Shown here in pieces: positions 2,685 through 48,637 of a DNA stretch of 64,000 bases; position 1 is the first letter of the stretch; every line of letters begins with the position of its first letter. A program made the translations under genes and the position numbers. The notes under the pieces were generated by a model, which was not told the origin of the DNA, ran no database searches, and saw only the letters and a list, made by a program, of their open reading frames with translations. The DNA comes from Candidatus Promineifilum breve (lineage in GTDB: Bacteria; Chloroflexota; Anaerolineae; Promineifilales; Promineifilaceae), in the NCBI RefSeq assembly GCF_900066015.1, contig NZ_LN890655.1, forward strand, positions 2,148,726 to 2,212,725. The letters are read 5' to 3'.

Positions 2685-4283
2685 ATGGACAACACAACAA
2701 ATCTGATGAGCGAACAATTCCGGCCGACGCTGGACGAATTCCGCGCGTTGGCTCGCGGCCCGGCCAACCTGATCCCGGTGACACGCGAGTTTGCCGCCGA
2801 CCTGGAGACGCCGGTCTCGGTCTATCTGAAGCTGATGGACGAGCCGGGGGCGTCGTTCCTGCTGGAGTCCGTCGAGGGCGGCGAGCAGGTCGGCCGCTAC
2901 TCGTTCGTTGGCGTCAATCCGCGGGGGACGATCACGCTGCGGGGGCGGGTGGTGGAGAGAAGCGCAGGGGGGCAGGGGGGCAGGGGAGCAGGGGCGCTCC
3001 CTGTCTCCCCTGCTCCCCTGCTCCCCCGCTCCCCTGCCTCTTATGAGTTGCCCGACGGCGAAGACATCCTCCACGTCCTGAAAACCGAGATGGAGCAATT
3101 CCACTATGCCGCGGCGGCCGGGTTGCCGCGCTTTGCCGGCGGCGCGGTGGGCTATCTGGGTTATGACGTGGTGCGCTTCTTCGAGCGGCTGCCCCAGACG
3201 GCCGCGCCGGGGCCGGACGTGCCCGACGCGGTGTTTCTGCTGGCCGATACGCTGGTCGTCTTCGACCACGCCCGCCACCGGCTGATCCTGCTGGCGAACG
3301 CCAGTATCGACGGCACGGGGGGAGACGTGGAGGCAGCCTACGTCGATGCGCTGCAACGCATCGACCGGCTGGCCGAGAAGCTGCTGCGGCCTCTGCCGGC
3401 CGTGCCCGCCCGCCGCTGGGGAGCAACGTCCGGCAACGGCAACGGGCTGGAGAGCAACATGAGCCGCGACCGGTATGAGGCCATCGTACGCGAGGCCAAG
3501 GAGCACATCGCCGCCGGCGACATCTTCCAGGTGGTGCTGAGCCAGCGCTTCAGCCGCCGCACCAGCGCCCACCCGTTCGCCGTCTACCGGGCGCTGCGGA
3601 TGCTGAACCCGTCGCCCTATATGTTCTACTTCAACTTCGCGCCGCTGGATATGCAGGTCATCGGCGCGTCGCCGGAGATGCACGTGCGGCTGGAGGACGG
3701 CGTCGCCAGCGTGCGGCCCATCGCCGGGACGCGGCGGCGCGGAACCGACCCGGCCGAGGACGCGGCGCTGGCCGCCGAACTGCTGGCCGACCCCAAGGAG
3801 CGGGCCGAGCACGTCATGCTGGTCGACCTGGGGCGCAACGACGTCGGCCGGATCAGCGAATACGGCTCGGTGGCCGTGCGCGACCTGATGACCATCGAGC
3901 GCTATAGCCACGTGATGCACATCGTCAGCCAGGTGGAGGGGCGCATCCGGCCGGGGCTGGACGCCTACGACCTGATGCGGGCCACCTTCCCGGCCGGCAC
4001 GGTCAGCGGCGCGCCCAAGGTGCGGGCGATGGAGATCATCGAGGCGCTGGAAGGGCAGCGGCGCGGCCTCTATGCCGGGGCGGTGGGCTATTTCAGCTAT
4101 GACGGCAGCATGGACACCTGCATCGCCATCCGCACGATGGTGATGCAGGGCGACAGCGTGTCGGTGCAGGCCGGGGCGGGCATCGTGGCCGATAGCGAAC
4201 CGGCGGCCGAATATCAGGAGAGCGTCAACAAGGCCAGCGCGCTGCTGGTGGCCGTGGCGCGAGCGGAGGCGGGAACGTTATAG
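2685..4283 (+). CDS. trpE: Anthranilate synthase component I
   Basis: Converts chorismate to anthranilate with ammonia delivered by a TrpG partner. The 532-aa protein carries the N-terminal LLES feedback motif (residues 59-62, followed by VEGGEQVGRYSF), which binds inhibitory tryptophan. Its C-terminal chorismate-binding domain includes AGDIFQVVLSQRF and later FPAGTVSGAPKVRAMEII. Residues 93-119 (Gly/Arg then Pro-rich) are encoded by an in-frame palindromic repeat and look like an insertion in a loop of the N-terminal domain. The start has GAGGAG upstream. It is co-directional with trpB2 and trpS behind one T-box. Function is confident; tolerance of the insert is inferred from the intact frame. 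Confidence 0.93.
   Translation: MDNTTNLMSEQFRPTLDEFRALARGPANLIPVTREFAADLETPVSVYLKLMDEPGASFLLESVEGGEQVGRYSFVGVNPRGTITLRGRVVERSAGGQGGRGAGALPVSPAPLLPRSPASYELPDGEDILHVLKTEMEQFHYAAAAGLPRFAGGAVGYLGYDVVRFFERLPQTAAPGPDVPDAVFLLADTLVVFDHARHRLILLANASIDGTGGDVEAAYVDALQRIDRLAEKLLRPLPAVPARRWGATSGNGNGLESNMSRDRYEAIVREAKEHIAAGDIFQVVLSQRFSRRTSAHPFAVYRALRMLNPSPYMFYFNFAPLDMQVIGASPEMHVRLEDGVASVRPIAGTRRRGTDPAEDAALAAELLADPKERAEHVMLVDLGRNDVGRISEYGSVAVRDLMTIERYSHVMHIVSQVEGRIRPGLDAYDLMRATFPAGTVSGAPKVRAMEIIEALEGQRRGLYAGAVGYFSYDGSMDTCIAIRTMVMQGDSVSVQAGAGIVADSEPAAEYQESVNKASALLVAVARAEAGTL
2963..3040 (+). repeat. AGCAGGGG-type palindrome inside trpE
   Basis: Units of the type GCAGGGG/GGGAGCA on the left arm face CTCCCCTGC units on the right arm around a GCGCTCCC centre. 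The whole element keeps the trpE frame and encodes a Gly/Arg-rich then Pro-rich tract. Related elements occur in the M16C peptidase, dnaE and murE, and between genes at 4288-4389 and 36819-36899. Confidence 0.85.
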
Positions 4284-7501: not shown

Positions 7502-10500
7502 ATGACCGAGACAATCCACGGCTTCGAATTGGTGCGCGATGAGACCATCGCCGAGCTGAACACGCGGGCACAGATGTGGCGACACATCAAGACTGGCGCG
7601 CAACTGCTGTCACTGGAGAACGACGACGAGAACAAGGTCTTCGGCATCACCTTTCGCACGCCGCCGACCGACTCCACCGGCCTGCCCCACATTCTGGAGC
7701 ACGTCGTCCTGGCCGGTTCGCAAAAATACCCGCTGAAAGATCCGTTCTTTGAACTGGTGAAGGGGTCGCTGGCGACGTTCGTCAACGCCATGACCTACCC
7801 CGACAAGACGGTCTACCCGGCGGCCAGCACCAATTTGCAGGATTTCTATAACCTGCTGGATGTCTACGTCGATGCCGTCTTCCACCCCCTGCTGTCGCCG
7901 GAGAAGCTGGCCCAGGAGGGGTGGCACTACGAACTGGAGGCGGCCGACGCGCCGCTGACCTATAAGGGCGTGGTCTTCAATGAGATGAAGGGGGCCTACT
8001 CCTCGCCCGACAGCTTGCTCGGCCGCTATAGCCAGCAGGCCACCTTCCCCGATATTACCTACGGCGTCGATTCCGGCGGCGACCCGACGGTCATCCCCAC
8101 CCTGACCTATGAGCAGTTCAAACGCTTCCACGAGACCTACTACCACCCGTCGAACGCGCTGATCTTCTTCTATGGCGACGACGATCCTCAGGAGCGATTG
8201 CGGCGTATGGGCGGCTATCTGGCCGAGTTCGAGGCCATCACCGTCGATAGCGCCATCACCCAACAACGGCCGTTCGACGCGCCGCGGCTGGTGCGCTTCC
8301 CCTATGGCGCGGGCGAGGCGGCCGGCGACGACGGCGACGCGGACAGTCCGGCCGAGGACGCGCCCAAGTCATTCATCGAGATCAACTGGCTGCTGCCGGA
8401 ATATGAAGACCCGACGCTGATCATGGCGTTGGAAATCCTGTCCCACGCTCTGCTGGAGACGCCCGCCTCGCCGCTGCGCAAGGCCCTCATCGACTCCGGG
8501 CTGGGCGAGGACGTGCTCGGTGGGCTGTCGCCCTATACCCGGCAATTGACCTTCTCGGCCGGGCTGAAGGGGGTGGCGGCGGCCGACGTTGACAAGGTGG
8601 AGCCGCTGATCCTGGAAACGCTGGCCGGGCTGGCCGAGGATGGGCTTGACCCGGAGATGATCGCCGCCTCGCTCAATACGCTGGAGTTTGGGCTGCGCGA
8701 GAACAACACCGGCCGCTATCCGCGCGGGCTGGGGCTGCTGGTGCGGGCGCTGTTCACCTGGCTCCACGACCGCGACCCGCTGGCCCCGCTGGCCCATGAG
8801 GCCCCGTTGGCGGCGGTGAAGGAGCGGCTGGCGGCCGACGCCGATTATCTGCCCGGCCTTATCGGCCAGTATTTGATCGACAACCCCCACCGGGTCACGG
8901 TCATCCTGGAGCCGGACGCGGGACTGAACCGGCGGCTGGAAGAGGAGGAGCGGGCGCGGCTGGACGCGGCGCGGGCCACGATGAGCGACGCCGAGGCCCA
9001 GACGGTCATCGACCAGGCCCGCGAACTGATGGAACGGCAGAACACCCCCGACGCGCCGGAAGTGCTGGCGACGCTGCCCAGCCTGGGGCGGGAGGATTTG
9101 GATAAGCAGCATAAGGTGATTCCGATCCGGGTGGGTATGACGGCAGGGGAGCAGGGGAGCAGGGGAGCAGGGGAGAGCGTTGCCGCCCCCCTGCCCCCCC
9201 GCACCCCTGCTCCCCTGCACCTCTTCCACGACCTCTTCACTAACGGCATCGTCTACCTCGATCTGGGGCTGGATTTGCGGGCGCTGCCGGGCGAGTTGCT
9301 GCCCTACGCCGGGCTGTTGGGCCAGGCGCTGCTGGAGATGGGCACGGCGACCGAGGATTTCGTGCGCCTGTCGCAGCGCATCGGCCGCACGACGGGCGGG
9401 ATTGGGCCGGATACGTTGATTGCGCCGGTGGTGGCGACGGAAGCAGGGGAGCAGGGGAGCAGGGGAGCAGGGGGGCAAGGGACGGCTGCCTACCTGATGT
9501 TGCGCGGCAAGGCGACGACGGCCCGCGCGCCGGAGATGCTCGACATCCTGGCCGACGTGCTGCTGACGGCGCGGCTGGATAACCGTGAGCGCTTCCGCCA
9601 GATTGTGCTGGAGGCCAAGGCCGGGGCCGAGGCCTCGCTGGCTCCGGCCGGCCATCAGGTGACCAATACCCGGCTGCGCGCCCATTTCCACCCGGCTTAC
9701 CGCGTCGAAGAAATGGTCAACGGCGTGGAGAATCTGCTCTTCCTGCGGCGGCTGGCCGAGCGGGTGGAGAGCGATTGGCCGGGCGTGCTGGCCGATTTGG
9801 AGGCGGCGCGCCGGGCGCTGGTCAGTCAGGCCGGGCTGCTCGTCAACGTGACGCTGGATGAGGCTAATTATGGCGCGTTTGCGCCGCGGTTAAATGAGTT
9901 CGTCGGCCGCTTGCCCCTAGAAACCGAGTTTCACACACCTCTGAGGTCTGCGGCAGACCTCAGAGGTGTGCGCGATTTCCCCCGCCACGAAGGGCTGGCC
10001 TTCCCGGCCCAGGTGAACTACGTGGGCAAGGGGGCCAACCTCTACGAACTGGGCTACGAACTGGACGGTTCGATTGCCGTCATCAACAACCTGTTGCGGA
10101 CGGGCTACCTGTTGCAGAAGATCCGCATCCAGGGCGGGGCCTATGGCGCGTTCGCCACGTTCAGCCCATTGTCGGGCGTCTACACCTATTTGTCCTACCG
10201 CGACCCCAACCTGAGCAATACGTTGGCCGTCTATGACGCCACGGCCGACTTCCTGCGCGGGCTGGAGCTGAGCGACGACGAACTGACGCGGGCCATCATC
10301 GGGGCCATCGGCGCGATCGACGCCTACCAGTTGCCCGACGCCAAGGGGTACACGTCGCTGACGCGCTATCTGACTGGCGAGACCGACGAGCGGCTGCAAA
10401 AGTTCCGCGACGAGGTGCTGGGCACGACCGTGGCCGATTTCCACGCGCTGGGCGAGGCGCTGGCGCGGGTGAATGAGGCAGGGGATGTGGTGGTGTTAGG

Positions 10501-13776: not shown

Positions 13777-13820
13777 GCCTCAGGTGCGACGCACTTTCTG
13801 AAGTGCGTCGCACCTGAGGC
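13777..13820 (+). repeat. GGTGCGACGCACTT palindrome, copy 2
   Basis: A perfect 20-bp stem (GCCTCAGGTGCGACGCACTT and its complement) encloses TCTG. It lies exactly between two convergent genes, 8 nt from one stop and 3 nt from the other, where a bidirectional transcript end would be expected. Confidence 0.9.
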
Positions 13821-28330: not shown

Positions 28331-28446
28331 GGAGAATCCACAGATTACACAGATTTCACAGATTTAAGAGAGTGAACAGTGGGTAGCTGGCAGTCGCGCG
28401 ACTGCCAGCTACCCACTAATCTGTGAAATCTGTGTAATCTGTGGTT
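28331..28446 (+). repeat. CACAGATTT palindrome
   Basis: The arms GAATCCACAGATTACACAGA and TCTGTGTAATCTGTGG are separated by an inner inverted pair (GTGGGTAGCTGGCAGTCGCG / CGACTGCCAGCTACCCAC). It sits between convergent aroQ and the M1 peptidase. Confidence 0.9.
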
Positions 28447-30164: not shown

Positions 30165-30196
30165 GGTGCGACGCACTTCGGAAAGTGCGTCGCACC
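30165..30196 (+). repeat. GGTGCGACGCACTT palindrome, copy 4
   Basis: A perfect 14-bp stem encloses CGGA in the divergent gap between the M1 peptidase and ftsK. It lies upstream of TATAAT at 30229-30234, the likely ftsK -10 box. Confidence 0.9.
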
Positions 30197-46723: not shown

Positions 46724-48637
46724 TTAAGTATTGAACGTCGGCAACCCCAAATCCACCATCTCCCGCCCCGCAAGAAACGCTTCCAGCGCCGCCCCAGCCG
46801 CCCGCCGATCATCCCACGGATATTCCACCGTCCCAAAGGCCATCGACTGCTCATGCCCCTTGCCGCACAGCAGCATGATGTCGCCCGGCCGGGCCAGCGT
46901 CAGGGCGAAATAGATCGCCCGCCCGCGATCGGGCACGCGCCAGAACGTCTCGCCTTCCACGCCGCCGGCGGCCCGCGCCGCGTCGGCCATCGTCGCCAGG
47001 ATGTCGTCGAGCGATTCGGTGCGCGGGTCTTCGGCCGTCAGCACGGTCAGGTCGGCCGCCCGCGCCGCCACTTCGGCCATCAGCCGCCGCTTGGCCACGT
47101 CGCGCTTGCCCGCGCTGCCGAAGACGGCGAGAACGCGGGGAGTGGCGGGTGGCGCGTGGCGGGTGGCGGGTGAGGAGCGTTCTTCATTCGTCATTCCTAA
47201 TTCGTAATTCGTAATTTCTTTGCGCCCCTGCGCCCCTGCGCCCCCGCCCCCCTGCTCTTCGATCATTCCCCGCGCCGCCTCAATCGCCCGCGCCAGGGCA
47301 TTCGGCGTGTGGGCAAAGTCGACCACGACCAGGAACGGCTGGCCGCGGTCGATGCGTTCCATGCGGCCGCTGAGCGCGGGGACGCCTTCCAACCCGGCGC
47401 GAATCGCTTCCGGCGCCACGCCCAGCGCCGACGCCGCGGCTGATGCCGCCAGCATATTGTGAACGTTGAACGCCCCCGGCAACGGCGCATTGACGGGCAG
47501 CGACACGCCACCGACGTGGAGCATAAACGCCGTCGTCTCTGCCCCATATGCGATGTCCGTCGCCATCGTTGTAGGGCGGGATGGTATCCCGCCCTCCCCT
47601 TCCGCCGCGGGTTCAAACCCGCGGCTGCCATGCAAAACCCGGTTAAAACCGGTTCCTGAGTCGCTCGCCGCTCTTTCAGTGCGTTTTAACGCACTTTGTG
47701 TACCAGCGGTGGGTTTCAACCCACCGCTCAACCCACCGCGCTCCCCCAACCCATACGCAACCACCTCAACCGCCCGCCCGGCCAAAAACTCAGCCAACGG
47801 CCCAAACGAACGATCATCCTGATTGAGCACGGCCGCACGTCGCAAGGCGATCTTAGCCGCGTTGCCCGATGGGACATGAATCATGTCCTCCAGCAGATAG
47901 GCGAACAGTTGCCGCTTGGCGGCGAAGTAGGCTTCGTAGCTGCCGTGATAGTCCAGGTGTTCGTGAGTGATGTTGGTGATCACGGCCAGGTCGAAATCGA
48001 CGGCGGCCACGCGCTGCTGGGCCAGCGCGTGGGAGGTCGTCTCCAGCACACAGTGGGTCAGCCCGGCATCGACCATGCGCCGCAGATAGCGCTGGACGAC
48101 GGGCGACTCCGGCGTGGTGACGTGGAGCGCCAATGGCTCCTCGGTGTCACCGATGACGGCCTTGATCGTACTGAGCAGCCCGGCGCGAATCCCGGCGGCG
48201 CGCAACACGTTGAACAGGATGTTGGCCGTGGTCGTCTTGCCATCGGTGCCGGTGATGCCGATGACCACCAGTTGCCGGCTGGGGAACCCCTCCCAAGCCG
48301 CCGACAACCAGGCCAGCGCCTCGGCCGTGTCGGGCACGGTCAGATAGGCCACGCCTGCGGGCACGCTCAGCCCCAACGCGGCGGCCGGCCGCTGGGCCAG
48401 GATGAGGCTCGCCCCGCGCGCGATGGCCTGGGCGATGTAGGGGTGGCCGTCGCTGCCGGTGCGCACGCGGGCCACGAAAGCCATGCCCGGCTCTACCTCG
48501 CTCGTCTTCTCGGTGAAGCCGGTGATGGTCACGTCAGGGCCGTCGTAGGGCGGCGGTTGGGGGTGATTGGTATCGCCGACGGCCGCGGCCCAGGCCGCCA
48601 GCAGGTCTTTCAATAGCTGTGGCATATCACTCATCAT
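46724..48637 (-). CDS. murE: UDP-N-acetylmuramoyl-tripeptide synthetase
   Basis: Adds the third amino acid to UDP-MurNAc-L-Ala-D-Glu. The 637-aa protein is longer than usual (about 500). The ATP loop GITGTDGKTTT is near residue 130, and CVLETTSHAL and LPGAFNVHNMLAA are intact. Two in-frame inserts explain the excess: residues about 303-355 (KPTAGTQSALKRTERAASDS and onward) after VVAYGLGE, and about 459-499 before RVLAVFGSAGKRDVAKR. Both lie in loops. Whether it adds DAP or Lys is not decided: the motif reads EDPRTE instead of DNPR. Its ATG overlaps the upstream stop by 4 nt. Confidence 0.9.
   Translation of the reverse strand: MMSDMPQLLKDLLAAWAAAVGDTNHPQPPPYDGPDVTITGFTEKTSEVEPGMAFVARVRTGSDGHPYIAQAIARGASLILAQRPAAALGLSVPAGVAYLTVPDTAEALAWLSAAWEGFPSRQLVVIGITGTDGKTTTANILFNVLRAAGIRAGLLSTIKAVIGDTEEPLALHVTTPESPVVQRYLRRMVDAGLTHCVLETTSHALAQQRVAAVDFDLAVITNITHEHLDYHGSYEAYFAAKRQLFAYLLEDMIHVPSGNAAKIALRRAAVLNQDDRSFGPLAEFLAGRAVEVVAYGLGERGGLSGGLKPTAGTQSALKRTERAASDSGTGFNRVLHGSRGFEPAAEGEGGIPSRPTTMATDIAYGAETTAFMLHVGGVSLPVNAPLPGAFNVHNMLAASAAASALGVAPEAIRAGLEGVPALSGRMERIDRGQPFLVVVDFAHTPNALARAIEAARGMIEEQGGGGAGAQGRKEITNYELGMTNEERSSPATRHAPPATPRVLAVFGSAGKRDVAKRRLMAEVAARAADLTVLTAEDPRTESLDDILATMADAARAAGGVEGETFWRVPDRGRAIYFALTLARPGDIMLLCGKGHEQSMAFGTVEYPWDDRRAAGAALEAFLAGREMVDLGLPTFNT
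47139..47261 (+). repeat. Composite repeats inside murE, distal insert
   Basis: It contains GTGGCGGGTGGCGCGTGGCG direct units, TTCGTAATT-type units (47185-47215) and CCCCTGCGCCCCTGCGCCC units. It encodes Glu/Gly-rich and ITNYELGMTNEERSS peptides, like the dnaE insert. Confidence 0.75.
47573..47728 (+). repeat. Five-hairpin array inside murE, proximal insert
   Basis: Perfect stems follow one another: 47573-47582/47586-47595 (AGGGCGGGAT), 47605-47612/47617-47624 (CCGCGGGT), 47678-47685/47688-47695 (AGTGCGTT) and 47705-47715/47718-47728 (AGCGGTGGGTT). A weaker AACCCGGTT/AACCGGTT pair lies near 47636-47654. The loops are all 2-4 nt. It is inserted in the murE frame. Confidence 0.85.

Follow-up and report, generated by a model that had tools for sequence, protein, structure and literature searches.

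The window, a stretch of 64,000 nucleotides from the genome of Candidatus Promineifilum breve, includes an open reading frame on the minus strand (46724-48637) that codes for 637 amino acids and was identified as murE by NCBIfam TIGR01085 (396 bits, 2.3e-118). A domain search matched Pfam Mur_ligase_M and Mur_ligase_C in its product. For a neighbouring gene the closest named match, with 78% protein identity, was from an uncultured Ardenticatenia MAG, which fits a Chloroflexota bacterium. Since the other Mur-like match listed in the genome is a paralogue with 34% identity, this gene appears to code for the sole MurE of the organism. The MurE open frames of relatives are mostly 530-580 amino acids long. 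The gene hosts an insertion at 47571-47739 composed of four near-perfect hairpins, a weaker fifth one and a decayed closing stem. The reading frame stays open across this tract, which is translated in frame and presumably transcribed as part of murE. An earlier note, made from the nucleotide sequence alone, had described an in-frame array of five hairpins at 47573-47728. The array was found as four perfect short-loop hairpins plus a weaker one at 47639-47652, with the tract reaching beyond the proposed limits, from 47571, where a GTAG tag starts, to 47739, where a 12-bp partial duplication ends.

The inverted-repeat search located perfect short-loop hairpins at 47573-47595 (10 bp, loop of 3), 47604-47625 (10 bp, loop of 2), 47678-47695 (8 bp, loop of 2) and 47705-47728 (11 bp, loop of 2). 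The fifth hairpin, CCGGTTAAAACCGG (47639-47652), with a core of 6 bp, is present in the RNA fold. Folding of 47540-47760 gave -90.6 kcal/mol compared to -65.3 ± 4.3 kcal/mol for shuffled sequences (z -5.9). Among 5000 Markov-1 shuffles of 47573-47728 none had more than two such hairpins, where four were observed; elsewhere in the window no stretch of 156 bp had three or more. The clustering of hairpins in the murE tract is far above chance.

The hairpin closest to the low-coordinate end is part of a GTAG-tagged REP on the plus strand (47571-47593), formed by GTAG (47571-47574), the stem GGCGGGAT, the loop GGT and ATCCCGCC. The sequence GTAGGGCGGGATNNNATCCCGCC has 55 exact copies in the genome and none in the reversed control, and when up to three mismatches were allowed the palindrome was found at 114 genomic sites versus 2 in the control. 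These sites are dispersed, and many of them form opposite-strand pairs 30-80 bp apart. With GTAG directly 5′ of a stem within the 6-13 bp range, a short loop, and a dispersed family of high copy number that often occurs as inverted pairs, the 47571-47593 segment is a classical GTAG-tagged REP, separate from the compound element that adjoins it, and is like the GTAG REP/BIME sequences of class 2 TnpA-REP (RAYT) systems in its tag, stem and loop. Because only a few neighbourhoods carry both nearby, the REP and the compound element could have reached murE in separate events.

The rest of the tract is a full-length copy of a compound, CAG-tagged, BIME-like palindromic element on the minus strand (47604-47726), so that its sense is that of the murE coding strand. 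A search of the genome for other copies of the 156-bp tract, which the earlier note had proposed, found 63 matching places, the longest at 79-86% identity. Covariance model R1 was then built from an alignment of seven full copies, all from this genome; the murE copy is one of the seven, and its match to model positions 1-122 with 126.6 bits (G000:C1:2196329-2196451), like those of the other training copies, follows by construction, which is not the case for the other places. The model gave 95 genomic matches over both strands, corresponding to 56 non-overlapping places in 42 neighbourhoods. The copies share the order palindrome A, CTG, closing-stem arm and inner palindromes B and D, followed by a second closing-stem arm ending in CAG and the outer palindrome E; the variable spacer between B and D forms a third inner hairpin in some copies. 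The element has two outer palindromes placed tail-to-tail with inward CAG feet, about 120 nt in total. The feet are highly conserved (CTG in 31 of 31 copies and CAG in 30 of 32), and the base after the CAG is mostly C, with CAGA in a few copies.

In the murE copy, described in plus-strand coordinates with no strand assigned to the palindromes, the spacer or the duplication, the outer palindrome E, GCCGCGGGTTCAAACCCGCGGC, occupies 47604-47625, and its conserved CAG foot, on the minus strand and reading CTG on the plus strand, lies at 47625-47627. Arm 1 of the closing stem follows at 47625-47635 (plus strand); it is decayed and, according to the pair count for helix 2, mismatched with respect to arm 2. 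The fold and the copy alignment place the inner palindrome D, AAC(C)CGGTTAAAACCGGTT, at 47636-47654, where a compensatory change from C-G to T-A was observed (pair 82-87). The variable spacer, defined by the copy alignment, spans 47655-47677 and is the position of the weak hairpin C, which is decayed in this copy and intact in some others. The inner palindrome B, AGTGCGTTTTAACGCACT, at 47678-47695, and the outer palindrome A, AGCGGTGGGTTTCAACCCACCGCT, at 47705-47728, were delimited, as was E, by the inverted-repeat search and the copy alignment. Between them, arm 2 of the closing stem, TTGTGTACCAG, identified by pair count and alignment at 47696-47706 on the plus strand, ends in the CAG foot at 47704-47706. 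The outer palindrome is partly duplicated over 12 bp (TCAACCCACCGC) at 47728-47739, a duplication that the copy at C2:9387 also has. The closing stem of the murE copy is broken, its row being the one with broken pairs in the pair count, and since this stem has decayed the copy is partly degraded and may no longer be mobile.

The stem sequences vary between copies while the pairing persists. In the seven-copy alignment six pairs have changed on both sides, a result matched by 4 of 500 shuffles, and sliding the pairing partners destroys the pairing. In the best 20 copies Watson-Crick pairing reaches 94-99% in the short hairpins (helices 1, 3, 4 and 5) and 84% in the closing stem. Some of the covariation arises from subfamilies that carry different hairpins as whole units, and entire hairpins have been exchanged between copies in a modular fashion. 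The idea that each hairpin is unique and that the array represents a distinct structural class did not hold, as each recurs at its own position in other copies. The alternative suggestion of a REP-like cluster proved closer, both components being dispersed palindromic families, the larger of which flanks a Y1 transposase gene. The window has further palindromes with perfect stems of 14-20 bp at 9934-9970, 13777-13820, 28378-28417 and 30165-30196, two of which have GGTGCGACGCACTT in common; these probably belong to further palindromic repeat families.

Thirty of the 42 neighbourhoods lie on contig C2, which accounts for 20% of the two large contigs (binomial p ~1e-12). C2 is a 1.0-Mb contig and C1 a 4.0-Mb contig; the concentration of elements on the former is perhaps due to its being a second replicon. 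Model matches were found in all seven same-genus genomes, in 10 of 16 other genomes of the family and, as a single weak match, in one of 16 genomes outside the family; the model comes from one genome and several of the same-genus assemblies are incomplete drafts, so these numbers may miss distant variants. Copies of the element also lie in two other open frames, where homologous peptides are kept in the same frame. The peptide GGLKPTAGT.SALKRT is in frame in a 595-amino-acid open reading frame (C2:873060) conserved within the genus; as the linker itself varies in relatives, with no clean empty site, the evidence for an insertion there is no more than suggestive. Several copies (C2:135067-135640) lie between the conserved N- and C-terminal parts of a 1176-amino-acid, glycosyltransferase-like open reading frame (C2:134343-137870; Pfam PMT_2 only at E 0.013). 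Between its conserved parts, the latter contains about 500 residues that are largely repeat-derived (VVETMGLVSPPPRPLAAMG units and hairpin elements).

The MurE orthologue alignment, also proposed in the earlier note, placed the insert in a loop whose length varies among relatives and showed orthologues without it. Between a conserved YG and a conserved I(A/V)YG there are 65 residues in the window MurE and 11, 18, 11 and 12 in the four congeners aligned (G001, G003, G004 and G006, respectively). The net insert is about 53 residues, or about 160 nt, a size that fits the hairpin tract. The same hairpins in other MurE proteins, named beforehand as the sign of ordinary coding sequence, were not found in the orthologues aligned. 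Because relatives differ in the loop itself, the target site could not be traced to an exact footprint. On solved MurE structures the insertion was bracketed between alignable blocks (up to about residue 245 and from about 355) rather than placed residue by residue, and a single-sequence AlphaFold2 model of the window MurE was unusable (mean pLDDT 37.8); therefore, no statement on the fold of the insert rests on it. A further in-frame insert, about 36 residues long and encoded at 47141-47248 by short tandem repeats with units of about 7 nt (e.g., GTGGCGG, AATTCGT and GCGCCCC), is missing from all relatives aligned.

Outside the insertion, comparison of the window MurE with these relatives gave dN values of about 0.13-0.16 and dS values of 0.64-1.13, similar to those of the insert-free pair G006-G004 (dN 0.165, dS 0.95). 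Apart from the insert, MurE is under normal purifying selection, which suggests that the enzyme functions in the presence of the insert. It probably tolerates the additional 53 or so residues as an extra loop, and the insert itself would have no function for the host. The murE copy of the compound element is stop-free in two of its six frames, of which murE uses the sense one. Across 32 copies any given frame is open in at most 11, so that landing in frame is frequent enough to require no special property on the part of the element.

Three Y1_Tnp genes were found in the genome, one on C2 and the others at C1:556427 and C1:3171597. The C2 gene (locus L009, 1351-1854, minus strand) codes for a 167-amino-acid protein (Pfam Y1_Tnp, 4e-28) and has arrays of the same hairpins on both sides, the model matching at C2:283790-284219 on one and at 284830-284943 on the other. 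The same-genus genome G001 has a 71%-identical transposase (C101:2998-3504) with a model match on either side (2872-2982 and 3542-3649), where the hairpins have different stem sequences and the same layout and CAGC foot. The recurrence of this arrangement with diverged stems suggests that transposase and hairpins have co-evolved. G022, which belongs to a different genus of the family, has two transposases that are more distant (52%) and have symmetrical multi-hairpin sets of other sequence on their flanks. No transposase match was detected in the draft assemblies of G003, G004 and G005, which have copies of the element. No hairpins were found within 1.5 kb of the IS200-like gene at C1:3171597. 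The gene at C1:556427 (L011) has the class 2 motif YVLNNP and lies among hairpins of a different family, GGTGGAACT...AGTTCCACC / GGGTGAACTGGAAGTTCACCC.

The C2 transposase resembles IS200/IS605 enzymes in its HVH and YVENQ (Y-x3-Q) motifs and in its score with the NF033573 model for that family (85.5 bits, cut-off 55); unlike typical members, it has one close copy in the genome and is flanked by hairpin arrays that far outnumber the gene. Its score with the REP-associated tyrosine transposase model (the REP_Tyr_transpos equivalog) was 29.1, below the curated cut-off of 80, and it lacks the Y-x3-NP motif of class 2 TnpA-REP proteins. Judged from motifs and scores by published criteria (PMC6006769), it is class 1- or class 3-like and not class 2. 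The class 3 features are a Y motif with Q and a non-GTAG foot (CnGA); the Q is present, and the foot is mostly CAG followed by C, with A in a few copies. The class 3 TnpA-Y1, or REPtron-like, group was reported mainly from Planctomycetes, Acidobacteria and Proteobacteria (PMC6006769).

Taken together, we consider, with a probability of roughly 0.8, that the murE tract is non-autonomous mobile palindromic DNA that a Y1 transposase mobilised and that entered the gene in frame, at a loop of the protein that tolerates it. It comprises one GTAG-tagged REP (47571-47593) adjoining one tail-to-tail compound element (47604-47726), in which the closing stem joins the two CAG-footed outer palindromes and encloses two or three more hairpins. 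The substrate of IS200/IS605 and TnpA-REP enzymes is single-stranded DNA, in which they recognise a short guide located 5′ of a hairpin (PMC6006769). By analogy with this biochemistry, the C2 Y1 (HUH) transposase most likely recognised the foot and hairpin in single-stranded form and thereby dispersed the copies, with the CAG presumably acting as the guide. One copy would have landed in murE, with its only stop-free sense frame in the frame of the gene, and added about 53 residues to the variable loop. Far more tentative, and rather doubtful at present, is the broader proposal that an IS200-type (Y-x3-Q) transposase of this Chloroflexota family, outside class 2, serves compound CAG-footed elements whose whole multi-arm fold (outer hairpins, closing stem and inner hairpins) would be the single-stranded substrate, and that these elements have repeatedly entered genes in frame, including an apparently single murE.

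Another Y1 enzyme could have moved the compound element, for example the IS200-like protein encoded at C1:3171597 or the class 2-like one at C1:556427. Alternatively, recombination or gene conversion could now be the main route by which copies spread, and the C2 gene would simply have been hit by insertions. The genome does have three Y1 genes, REPs are known to cluster, and whole hairpins show modular exchange between copies. However, one of the other two genes has no hairpins within 1.5 kb, the second is flanked by a different family, and the flanking of the C2 gene is repeated in G001, where the stems have diverged, all of which make these routes unlikely. The earlier note had also considered an expressed RNA structure. 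The murE mRNA might contain a structured or regulatory RNA element, such as an attenuator or a stability element, kept for the benefit of the host. This would agree with the position of the tract within the murE transcript and with its folding far better than shuffled sequences, and many REPs have been reported to show G-T pairing and a possible post-transcriptional role (PMC3733652). Nevertheless, the tract is missing from murE of the relatives aligned, copies of the element lie at unrelated genomic places, the closing stem is broken in the murE copy, and no Rfam family reached threshold for the tract, which gave only sub-threshold chance matches. G-T and A-C mismatches were equally frequent (13:13) in the best 20 copies, which indicates no RNA-strand bias; over the best 32 copies they leaned to G-T (40:21), and a weak RNA contribution is possible. 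As the reason for the existence of the tract, such an RNA is quite improbable. Least credible of all, to the point of being negligible, is the remnant of a retron or other reverse-transcribed element that the note had also suggested. Several hairpins in a row on one strand do resemble msr-msd RNAs, yet a search of the whole genome for RVT_1 produced no match while the positive controls were detected, more than 50 dispersed copies exist without a reverse transcriptase gene, and the tract had no retron match in Rfam.

The interpretation of the murE tract as mobile palindromic DNA can be compared with known systems. Tail-to-tail dimers with structured spacers are already known. Like BIMEs and REPINs, the 47604-47726 element is a dispersed inverted pair of palindromes without a transposase gene of its own, and the same palindromes flank a Y1 transposase gene on both sides in this genome and in G001. 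It shares with GTAG REP/BIME sequences the foot-plus-hairpin layout, the inverted dimers and the structured spacer, and differs from them in its CAG foot, its two or three extra inner hairpins and its closing stem, as well as in the Y-x3-Q motif and low REP_Tyr_transpos score of the associated enzyme. The foot is neither GTAG nor CGTC but NCAG, to which the degenerate GYAG form (PMC3733652) is closest. In-frame palindromic elements have been described in Rickettsia and intragenic REPs in several phyla, with clusters coding for 43-82 residues in Thauera and R. conorii, and the hosts tolerate them (PMC3733652). The murE tract is similar to these, being palindromic repeat DNA in frame within a protein gene, apparently tolerated, absent from the orthologues aligned, and compatible with function as far as purifying selection indicates; it differs in phylum and in its hairpin and foot sequences. 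Furthermore, a partner Y1 transposase gene was found here, whereas the intragenic repeats of R. conorii were counted among CGTC elements, a group apparently without a dedicated transposase (PMC3733652). A search of a collection of open-access papers found no description of such elements in Chloroflexota beyond GTAG repeats in the phylum and in T. roseum. What is new is that the element is compound, has a CAG foot and is associated with an IS200-type (Y-x3-Q) transposase; in-frame palindromic insertion was already known.

These results mean that an essential enzyme of cell-wall synthesis can be decorated with mobile palindromic DNA, here in a Chloroflexota lineage, and they tie a compound, non-GTAG palindromic family to a specific IS200-like Y1 transposase. 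The class 3 group has been proposed as an intermediate between insertion sequences and domesticated REP transposases (PMC6006769). The existence of MurE proteins with and without the insert within one genus offers a direct test of how enzymes absorb insertions.
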